Shown piece after piece: positions 11,401 through 51,715 of a DNA stretch of 64,000 bases. Location of the stretch: contig JAICWO010000004.1 of NCBI GenBank assembly GCA_025934775.1, forward strand, positions 1-64,000, given 5' to 3'. A model generated the notes under the pieces. It was not told the DNA's origin, searched no databases, and was given only the letters and a program-made list of their open reading frames with translations. Position 1 is the stretch's first letter. Each line of letters opens with the position of its first letter. Origin of the DNA: Gemmatimonadaceae bacterium. GTDB taxonomy: Bacteria; Gemmatimonadota; Gemmatimonadetes; Gemmatimonadales; Gemmatimonadaceae. Position numbers and translations under genes: made by a program.

Positions 11401-11662
11401 CCTCCTAAACGGGTCATCCCGAGCGAAGGCGCGCAGCGCATCCTCCTAAACGCTCATCCCGAGCGAAGGCGCGCAGCGCCGAAGTCGAGGGATCTACTAT
11501 CCCGGGTCGCTGCGCGTGCATCGCGCACCGGACGCGAGATCCCTCGACTCCCTCGCTTCGCTCGGTCGCTCGGGATGACAACGCAGGGGTATCGCTCCGC
11601 GCCTTTGCTCGGGATGACAACGCAGGGGTATCGCTCGGCGCCTCCGCTCGGGATGACAACGT
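11401..11662. repeat. Intergenic repeat block: 41-bp and 39-bp direct repeats around a large inverted repeat
   Basis: This block fills most of the 411-bp gap 11377-11787. Two direct copies begin with CCTCCTAAACG at 11401 and 11442 (41-bp spacing), and each contains TCATCCCGAGCGAAGGCGCG. Three direct copies begin CGGGATGACAACG at 11571, 11610 and 11649 (39-bp spacing; the first two continue CAGGGGTATCGCTC). The region 11453-11495 pairs as an inverted repeat with 11537-11580: TCATCCCGAGCG on one side, CGCTCGGGATGA on the other, with GTCGAGGGATCT and AGATCCCTCGAC as inner arms. The same family recurs at 48974-49073 and 51194-51231. Short open frames across this block are repeat translations, not genes. 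Confidence 0.85.
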
Positions 11663-47534: not shown

Positions 47535-48968
47535 ATGAGCAGCTCCATTGAATCGCTGATCAGCCGCGAGTACCAGCACGGCTTCGTGACGGAGATCGAA
47601 GCCGACACGCTGCCGCCCGGCTTGAGCGAAGAAATCGTCCGAGCGATCTCAGGCAAGAAGAACGAGCCGCCGTTCATGCTCGAGTGGCGGCTGAAGGCGT
47701 ATCGCCGCTGGCTTTCCATGAAGGAGCCGCATTGGCCGAACGTGACCTACGGTCCGATCGACTATCAGGCGGTGAGCTACTACTCGGCGCCCAAGACGAA
47801 GAAGCCGCTGGGCAGCATCGACGAGGTCGATCCGGAGCTGCTCGCGACGTACGCGAAGCTGGGCATTCCGCTCAACGAGCAGAAAATGCTCGCCGGCGTC
47901 GCGGTCGACGCGATCTTCGACTCCGTGTCCGTGGGCACGACGATGCGCGAAGAGCTGTCGAAGCACGGCATCATCTTCTGCTCGCTTGGCGAAGCGATTC
48001 GCGAGTATCCGGCGTTGGTCGAGAAGTATCTCGGCTCCGTGGTGCCGTACAGCGACAACTTCTTTGCTGCGCTGAACAGCGCGGTGTTCTCCGACGGCTC
48101 GTTCGTGTACGTGCCGAAGGGCGTGCGCTGCCCGATCGAGCTCTCGACGTATTTCCGCATCAACTCGGCGGATACGGGACAGTTCGAGCGAACGCTCATC
48201 ATCGCGGACGAGGGGGCGTACGTCAGCTACCTCGAGGGGTGCACGGCGCCGAAGCGGAGCACGAACCAGCTGCACGCAGCAGTCGTCGAGCTCGTCGCGC
48301 TCAAGGGCGCGACGGTCAAGTACTCGACCGTGCAGAACTGGTACGCCGGCGACAAAGAGGGCCGGGGCGGCATTTATAATTTCGTGACGAAGCGGGGCAA
48401 GGCCGCCGAGAACGCGAAGATCTCGTGGACGCAGGTGGAGACCGGCAGCGCGATCACGTGGAAGTATCCGAGCGTGATCCTGCTGGGCGACAACTCGGTG
48501 GGCGAGTTCTACAGCGTGGCGGTGGTGAACAACCACCAGCAGGCCGACACGGGCACGAAGATGATCCACATCGGCCGCAACACGAAGTCGACGATCGTCT
48601 CGAAGGGCATCTCGGCCGGCCAGGGGAACAACTCGTACCGGGGCCGCGTGCAGGTGCTTCCGAAAGCGACCGGCGCGCGCAACTACACGCAGTGCGATTC
48701 GATGCTCGTCGGCAACCGCTGCGGCGCGCACACGTTCCCGTACATCGAAGTCGGAAACAACAGCGCGATCGTGGAGCACGAGGCGAGCACGTCGAAGATC
48801 GGCGAAGATCAGATCTTCTACCTCAAGCAGCGCGGGCTGAGCGCCGAGCAGGCCGTGTCGATGATCGTGAGCGGATTCTGCAAGGAAGTGTTCAAGGAGC
48901 TGCCGATGGAGTTCGCGCTGGAAGCCCAGGCGCTGCTCGGCATCACGCTGGAAGGGAGCGTGGGGTGA
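47535..48968 (+). CDS. sufB: Fe-S cluster scaffold SufB
   Basis: The 477-residue protein is a standard-length SufB. It has the N-terminal [19 protein letters not shown] and the central [20 protein letters not shown]. The C-terminal beta-helix carries [20 protein letters not shown], with the conserved Cys, and [14 protein letters not shown]. SufB with SufC and SufD forms the SufBC2D complex that builds [4Fe-4S] clusters. I chose the ATG at 47535; in-frame upstream codons from 47295 show no SufB similarity. Its stop is 5 bp before a 100-bp palindrome that separates it from sufC. Confidence 0.97.
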
Positions 48969-48973
48969 CGACC

Positions 48974-49073
48974 GTCATCCCGAGCGACCGAGCGCAGCGA
49001 GGGAGTCGGGGGATCCGGGCTCGCGGCGCACCGCGCCCGGATCCCTCGACTCGCTTTGCTCGCTCGGAATGAC
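48974..49073. repeat. 100-bp palindromic element inside the suf operon
   Basis: Arms about 45 nt long face each other around a 12-nt loop. The outer ends are GTCATCCCGAGCG on the left and CGCTCGGAATGAC on the right; the inner ends share GGATCCGGGC. It ends 11 bp before the sufC ATG. The family is the one seen at 11453-11580 and 51194-51231. Confidence 0.9.
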
Positions 49074-49084
49074 AATTTGAGAAC

Positions 49085-49854
<770 letters not shown>

Positions 49855-49858
<4 letters not shown>

Positions 49859-51180
49859 GCACGTCCGTCGTCGTGGGAAGCCCGGTCGAATCGTACGTCG
49901 CGCCGTTCGACGAGCTGGTCGGCGACGCGTCGGCGCCGGCGTGGGTGCAGTCGATGCGCCGCGCGGCCTTCGACCGCTTCACCGCGCTCGGCTTCCCGAC
50001 CACCAAGAACGAAGACTGGCACTTCACGAGCGTCGCGCCGATCGCCGACTCGGAGTTCGTGCTCCTCGCGGCGAAGACCGGAGACATCAAGCGCGACGAG
50101 CTCGCGGCGTTCTCATTCGCCACCGGCCAGACCGCCGCGTGGTACACGATGGTGTTCGTCAACGGCCGTTTCGCGCCCGAGCTCTCCGACTGCGCGAAGC
50201 TGCCCAACGGCGTCAAGCTCTGGGATCTCGCGTCGGCGTGGACCAAGGCGCCCGACGTCGTCGACCGCATCGGGAAGATCACGAGCTACGACCTCAACGC
50301 CTTCACCGCGCTCAACACGGCGTTCATGCACGACGGCGCCGTGGTGCAGATCGCGAAGGAGACCGAGGTCGATCGGCCGATTCATCTGCTCTTCATCACC
50401 GACGCCAACGCCGCAAAGGGCGTGATGCACCCGCGCAACCTGATCGTGCTCGGGCGGCACGCCAAGGCGACGGTGATCGAGAGCTACGTCTCGACGAGCG
50501 AGGCGGTGTACTTCACGAACGCGGTCACCGAGGTCTCGGTCGCCGAGGGCGCGACGCTGCGGCACTACAAGATGCAGCGCGAGGCCGCGCGCTCGTTTCA
50601 CGTCGGCACGATCGAGGCGAGCCAGGCGAAGGACAGCCACTACGTCTCGTTCTCACTCGCCACCGGCGCGGCGCTGTCGCGCACGAACGTGTACACCACG
50701 CTCGGCGGCGAAGGCGCCGGCGCCACGTTGAACGGCTTGTACATGCTCGGCGACGATCAGCACTGCGATCATCAGACGCAGATCGTGCACGCGCAGCCCA
50801 ACTGCTTCAGCCGCGAGTTGTACAAGGGCGTGCTCGACGGCCGCTCGCACGGCGTCTTCAACGGCAAGGTGTACGTCCACCCGATCGCGCAGAAGACGGA
50901 CGGCAAGCAGACCAACAACACGCTGCTGCTCTCCGACACGGCGCAGATCGACACGAAGCCGCAGCTCGAGATCTTCGCCGACGACGTGAAGTGCACCCAC
51001 GGCGCGACGGTCGGGCAGATCGATCGCACGGCGCTCTTCTATCTGGAGAGCCGGGGTATCTCGCGGCCGCTGGCGCGGCGGCTCCTCACGTACGCGTTCG
51101 CCGCCGACGTGCTCGAGACGCTCGAGGTGGACGAGATTCGCCAGAGCCTCGAGACGGCCACGCTCGAGCGGTTCGTGTGA
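49855..51180 (+). CDS. sufD: Fe-S assembly protein SufD
   Basis: The 441-residue protein matches SufD: an N-terminal variable part, [13 protein letters not shown], then the beta-helix with [20 protein letters not shown] and [20 protein letters not shown], and a C-terminal [20 protein letters not shown]. It pairs with SufB in the SufBC2D scaffold. GTG at 49855 overlaps sufC (GTGA). A half-palindrome follows before sufU. Confidence 0.95.
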
Positions 51181-51193
51181 TGCCCACCGCGCT

Positions 51194-51231
51194 GTCATTC
51201 CTCGACTCGTTCCGTTCGCTCGGAATGGCGT
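51194..51231. repeat. Short relative of the suf palindrome before sufU
   Basis: GTCATTCCTCGACTCG leads to CGTTCGCTCGGAATGGC, the right-hand part of the element at 48974-49073 with its outer ends joined. GGAA at 51222-51225 lies 7 nt before the sufU ATG and may serve as its ribosome-binding site. Confidence 0.7.
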
Positions 51232-51232
51232 C

Positions 51233-51715
51233 ATGAGCTCGGAAGCGCTGTATCAGGAGCTCATCCTCGAGCACAACCGGAAGCCGCGCAACTTCCGAGA
51301 GATCGAGAACGCGGATCGCACGATCGAGGGTCGAAATCCGCTCTGCGGCGACCAGCTCACCCTCTGGGTGAAGATGGACGGCGATCGCATCGCCGACGCC
51401 GCGTTCAAAGGACAGGGATGCGCGATCTCGAAAGCGTCCGCATCCCTGATGACGACCGCGGTGAAGGGAAAAACGCGCGCAGAAGCCGAGGCGCTGTTCG
51501 ATCGCTTTCACAAGCTCGTCATGGGGCAGCTGCCCGAGAGCGAGCAGGCGTCGCTCGGATCGCTGCGCGCGCTCGGCGGCGTGTCCAAGTTTCCGCTGCG
51601 CGTGAAGTGCGCGAGCCTAGCGTGGCACGCGCTGCACTCGGCGCTGGAGAATGACGAGCGCGAAGTCTCCACGGAGCGCGAGGGCCCCGAGCCACCGCCG
51701 TTGGAGGGCGCGTGA
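51233..51715 (+). CDS. sufU: Fe-S scaffold / sulfur-transfer protein SufU
   Basis: The 160-residue protein has the SufU pattern: LYQELILEHNRKPRNF, then Cys-containing NPLCGDQLTLW, FKGQGCAISKASASLM and VKCASLAWHALHSAL. In Gram-positive-type systems SufU is the zinc-dependent sulfur acceptor for SufS. A charged, Pro/Glu-rich tail of about 20 residues is unusual. Its stop overlaps the Rieske gene start by four bases. Confidence 0.95.
   Translation: MSSEALYQELILEHNRKPRNFREIENADRTIEGRNPLCGDQLTLWVKMDGDRIADAAFKGQGCAISKASASLMTTAVKGKTRAEAEALFDRFHKLVMGQLPESEQASLGSLRALGGVSKFPLRVKCASLAWHALHSALENDEREVSTEREGPEPPPLEGA

Follow-up and report, generated by a model that had tools for sequence, protein, structure and literature searches.

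The window analysed here is a 64,000-nucleotide stretch of DNA from a Gemmatimonadaceae bacterium, which carries a suf operon whose genes sufB, sufC, sufD and sufU were identified by NCBIfam models (Table 1). The sufS gene was also confirmed by NCBIfam and is preceded by a gene for a Rieske-type ferredoxin. The named sequences most closely related to SufC come from Gemmatimonadaceae. The sufB TGA lies at 48966-48968, and positions 48974-49073 of the 116-bp gap between sufB and sufC form a palindrome, beginning 5 bp 3' of this stop codon. Checking of the sequence bore out the first-pass annotation, which had reported a palindrome of 100 bases between the two genes and a spacing of 11 bp to the sufC ATG at 49085. 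The long mRNA hairpin it had envisaged is also predicted: the element alone folds at -73 kcal/mol, and the single strand of 48950-49100 folds at -92.5 kcal/mol (z = -7.9), with 0 of 200 shuffles equally stable. The further description as a REP-like hairpin inside an operon was correct and can be refined, as the 100-mer very probably consists of two CGTC-type REP units arranged head to head.

Table 1. Genes of the suf operon and copies of the junction repeat in the window
Feature	Position	Strand	Basis
sufB, 477 aa, upstream gene	47535..48968	+	NCBIfam TIGR01980/NF008773 above cut-off
Head-to-head pair of CGTC-type REP units (very probable)	48974..49073	.	Sequence, fold, 77 own-genome matches
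Left REP unit, GTC tag, ATCCC...GGGAT hairpin, GA steps, GCA loop	48974..49016	+	Covarying half-hairpin model
Inverted right REP unit, with outer ATTCC facing inner GGGAT	49037..49073	-	Half-hairpin model
sufC, downstream gene	49085..49858	+	NCBIfam TIGR01978 above cut-off
sufD, overlaps sufC	49855..51180	+	NCBIfam TIGR01981
Half copy of junction repeat, sufD-sufU gap	~51194..51229	.	Sequence; one-mismatch end 51217-51229
sufU	51233..51715	+	NCBIfam TIGR01994
Composite copy, tandemly repeated ends, intergenic	11413..11657	.	Sequence

The two arms of the palindrome are imperfect, with the 36-nt core arms being 78% complementary without gaps. Its outer ends are GTCATCCCGAGCG at 48974 and CGCTCGGAATGAC at 49073, one of the outer pairs is a C x A mismatch, and the variable insert of the left arm is longer than that of the right. 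On its own, the left half folds at -16.7 kcal/mol. The window copy is slightly decayed. In its left half, TCGG replaces the TCGA of most halves, and its right half, with an outer ATTCC against an inner GGGAT, is the sole exception in outer pairing among the 61 halves compared.

Analysis of these halves revealed the consensus GTC-ATYCC-GA-GC-(variable)-G(T)C-GA-GGRAT, which corresponds to a 5-bp outer stem, GA/GA steps, an inner stem of 2-5 bp and a loop of mostly 3 nt. Y is complementary to R in 60 of the 61 halves (ATCCC/GGGAT in 44, ATTCC/GGAAT in 16 and one mismatched; Fisher p = 8e-14), and swapping the 5' and 3' parts among 23 distinct units weakened the mean fold, with 0 of 5000 permutations as stable, both probabilities overstating independence because the copies are related to each other. 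The inner arms vary with compensation (GCCGC...GCGGC, GCGGC...GCCGC and GGCGC...GCGCC), and the T:A type of outer pair is found on several different inner-arm backgrounds. Between the left and right halves, the outer bases mismatch in 3 of 18 resolved pairs, including that of the window; in two of these three dimers, each half nevertheless remains paired internally. Given that the halves pair within themselves despite the left-right mismatch, the unit is the half (REP) rather than the 100-bp hairpin, which is a by-product of two inverted REPs.

The 100-mer is one copy of a dispersed family and not a private element of the suf operon. It has 77 matches within its own genome (4.88 Mb, 47 contigs), and the 13-bp end GTCATYCCGAGCG occurs exactly 70 + 66 = 136 times, against 0 for a reversed-pattern control. 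The exact end was counted 299, 43, 3, 1 and 3 times in the same-genus genomes G004, G002 and G003 and in G005 and G001, respectively, so the abundance of the family is patchy. The copies in the host were merged to about 65 loci, which were then read individually. The 57 copies whose flanks are clear comprise 40 in codirectional, 14 in convergent and 3 in divergent gaps, compared with 34, 7 and 19 for control gaps of 30-600 bp at the same loci (p = 3e-4 for the depletion of copies in divergent gaps). The median distance is 16.5 bp from the stop codon and 61.5 from the start, and 33 of 68 distances to a stop do not exceed 15 nt; the neighbouring genes were called by a simple codon-usage script, which located the suf genes correctly but gave approximate starts elsewhere. 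The family thus hugs stop codons and avoids divergent, promoter-bearing gaps.

Members of the family take several common forms, namely pairs of 85-130 bp whose ends face outward, longer pairs of ~340-350 bp, single ends, and tandemly iterated ends. The longer pairs (L009, 349 bp; L114, 339 bp; L020, 350 bp) share these ends, with more sequence between them, and are possibly the fuller form that gave rise to the pairs of 100-112 bp. In the composite copy of the window and at L011, L013, L023, L125 and L126, the ends are iterated outward in tandem on one or both sides, each iteration consisting of 20-30 bp from the end of the element and ~5-15 bp of adjoining DNA. This pattern resembles the outcome of template switching or slippage at the hairpin; (GTAG) REP clusters likewise reiterate units plus flanking DNA, according to PMC3733652. 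Inspection by eye showed no target-site duplication, no pair of donor and recipient was found, and a literature search on repeat-sequence pieces or Gemmatimonas intergenic repeats returned nothing useful.

The sufB-sufC junctions of the same-genus genomes G002 and G003 are 12 and 21 bp long and lack the element; that of G004 holds another, related-looking REP pair (GTCATCCTCG...CGAGGGTGAC), and that of G005 an unrelated repeat. Thus, the element is most simply a lineage-specific insertion. A conserved suf-specific RNA was also considered and rejected, with no Rfam match in the window and a junction that is not conserved in sister species.

We then compared the junction across 78 relatives within the Gemmatimonadaceae, using 20-kb neighbourhoods and defining a strong hairpin by a z below -4. 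A strong hairpin is present at sufB-sufC in 21 of the 78 relatives versus 13 of 662 (2%) other codirectional gaps (p = 7e-14), and in 21 of 55 versus 13 of 246 when only gaps of at least 50 bp are taken (p = 1e-9). Elsewhere in the operon, it is found at 0 of 76 sufC-sufD junctions and 6 of 57 junctions between sufD and the next gene. At a z below -3, 29 junction hairpins, the window's included, fall into 24 sequence groups, so they are mostly unrelated; the arms of many consist of short units in tandem. The S10/spc ribosomal and nuo operons of 20 genomes served as a stricter control. Most conserved junctions in these operons are without a hairpin, and hairpins occur at tuf-rpsJ (8/19), rpsN-rpsH (5/16) and secY-adk (3/19). 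The proportion at sufB-sufC in this comparison is 19/77, versus 17/100 at the six other conserved junctions whose median gap is 50 bp or more (p = 0.26). Because the ribosomal and nuo controls show comparable filling, the reading of a suf-only hotspot is weakened. It is fair to state that hairpins accumulate at spaced operon junctions, including sufB-sufC, and that suf is not singled out.

Several further features of these junctions were observed. The hairpins at tuf-rpsJ and rpsN-rpsH (for example L293, L294, L305 and L306) are sometimes similar in related genomes and sometimes unrelated repeats. Tandem units of 7-10 bp form the arms of many intergenic hairpins in Gemmatimonadaceae, such as GATGGTAGATGGTAGA ... 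TCTACCATCTACCATC, and were seen in sufB-sufC gaps (L254, L241, L235, L249, L251 and L273), in sufD-sufU gaps (L207 and L215) and at secY-adk (L305). The units of this class differ by locus and genome, the form being conserved and the sequence variable, and no named class was found to match. In the sufB-sufC gap of G048 (L244), the junction is occupied by a cluster of CGTCATTCCCGCGAAAGCGGGAATCC-type REPs.

Taken jointly, the best explanation, which we consider probable, is that a REP pair of the CGTC kind was inserted behind the sufB stop codon, is tolerated there, and forms an RNA hairpin that may have a mild effect on sufB and sufC. The insertion would have occurred in the host lineage, with the pair tolerated like most stop-proximal copies, and the element would be transcribed as part of the suf mRNA. 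In E. coli, structures at the internal boundaries of malEFG and other operons have been linked to stabilization of the upstream segment (PMC5927463), and REPs at most 15 nt past the stop codon are reported to stall terminating ribosomes (PMC12306157, citing earlier work). We infer a mild effect from these precedents and from the position of the element, which falls within the 15-nt distance. Following the malE-malF model, the hairpin might block 3'-to-5' exonucleases, and sufB mRNA would then outlast sufCDUS; alternatively, the hairpin might slow ribosomes terminating on sufB. Its base, located 12 nt upstream of the sufC AUG, may in addition mildly lower sufC initiation. The direction of the effect is uncertain, given that protection would raise sufB mRNA whereas stalling would lower SufB. 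A mild effect on sufB versus sufC is thus suggested tentatively, by analogy with E. coli, and with similar caution the SufB:SufC ratio may change measurably; the first-pass annotation had proposed that the element could set the ratio of SufB to SufCD. Some role is favoured by the recurrence of mostly unrelated hairpins at about a quarter of the junctions in the family, together with the post-stop distance of the element. A role dedicated to suf is disfavoured, since the junction is empty in two same-genus species, copies lie behind stop codons genome-wide and the window copy is slightly decayed.

It is a serious possibility, if one we place a little below even, that the REP pair is a pure passenger of a permissive, spaced junction, with no measurable effect on suf expression. 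The empty junctions of the sister species agree with this, as do the broken outer pair of the window copy, unique among the 61 halves, and a hairpin rate at sufB-sufC that is not significantly higher than at other spaced junctions within operons. However, a hairpin of such stability, so close to both a stop and a start, seems unlikely to be wholly silent, and mostly unrelated hairpins recur at the junction. This recurrence, in 24 sequence groups, is also what would be expected if a strong hairpin at sufB-sufC were useful for differential decay or ribosome control and each lineage used whichever repeat was available, as would the enrichment over codirectional gaps and the lack of hairpins at sufC-sufD. 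We regard such a selected junction as unlikely, because the majority of relatives lack a strong hairpin at this position, the rates at tuf-rpsJ and rpsN-rpsH are comparable, and a lowering of SufC has no obvious benefit: the SufBC2D complex requires SufC in excess of SufB. Less likely again is the broader proposal that sufB-sufC in Gemmatimonadaceae is under selection to hold some strong RNA hairpin, with unrelated dispersed repeats recruited repeatedly and independently; if true, it would amount to convergent domestication of selfish palindromes as processing sites of operon mRNA. With a few junctions (sufB-sufC, tuf-rpsJ and rpsN-rpsH) refilled by mostly unrelated hairpins, tolerance versus recruitment for expression tuning becomes testable. 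A transcription attenuator or terminator separating sufB from sufCDUS is very improbable, for although the stem-loop is very stable and sits at an operon junction, the scan of 48800-49300 found neither a T tract after the stem nor a terminator-like site, and no promoter match before sufC, the last also disfavouring a new promoter.

Compared with known repeat systems, the family most resembles the CGTC super-family of REPs. The GTC tag is preceded by T in 46 and by C in 6 of 61 halves, the latter including the window copy, in keeping with the CGTC (often TGTC) tag. All matched halves have the AT...AT start of a complementary stem, which the search pattern itself required. Eighteen pairs were resolved as head-to-head dimers with the tags outward, single ends being also common; the host genome has no Y1_Tnp match, consistent with a super-family that lacks a dedicated transposase; and 54 of 57 copies lie in unidirectional or convergent gaps near the 3' ends of genes. 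Yet the Gemmatimonadaceae unit does not have the stem of 8-9 bp and loop of 4-5 given in PMC3733652, and in most copies GGRAT is followed by CTGGG or CCGGG instead of the mostly CCA tail described there. As the stem and tail of the unit differ from those of the published CGTC families, its placement rests on form more than on sequence. That work (Di Nocera et al. 2013, PMC3733652) reports CGTC REPs in Proteobacteria, Chlorobi, Bacteroidetes, Spirochaetes and Thermotogae and does not list Gemmatimonadota. The family appears to be a new, CGTC-like REP variant outside the four published families.

The family also shares with REPINs (Bertels and Rainey 2011, PMC3116915) the presence of inverted REP doublets across the genome. 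It is nonetheless extremely improbable that the element is a REPIN whose spread depends on a RAYT (Y1 transposase) encoded in the host genome: the size of about 100-112 bp, the inverted pair and the copy number would fit, but no RAYT gene was found in the host genome, Y1_Tnp matches are 0 also in the repeat-rich relatives G004 and G002, and the two RAYT-like loci examined (in G013 and G016) are surrounded by other repeats. At these two loci, L086 (G013) and L085 (G016), the repeats adjoining the RAYT-like Y1 transposase genes are unrelated to those of the window; those at L085 are inverted GGGGTCAGACTCC-type repeats resembling published TIRs with a GGGGWSAS motif. The family extends tagged REP pairs to Gemmatimonadota, where the stem has a distinct architecture and no RAYT was detected. 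The ~340-350 bp variants, in which the ends of the family enclose a longer interior, are reminiscent of MITEs with terminal inverted repeats; unlike in MITEs, these ends are self-folding REPs and target-site duplication is not apparent by eye, the transposase search having covered the Y1 type only. Finally, the REPs of E. coli belong to the GTAG type and are hence unrelated in sequence; their effect on mRNA decay has been measured in E. coli. What the element shares with the E. coli REP/BIME at malE-malF and in other operons is its setting, a REP at an operon junction just past a stop codon, 5 nt at sufB and thus within 15 nt, where an RNA hairpin is expected.
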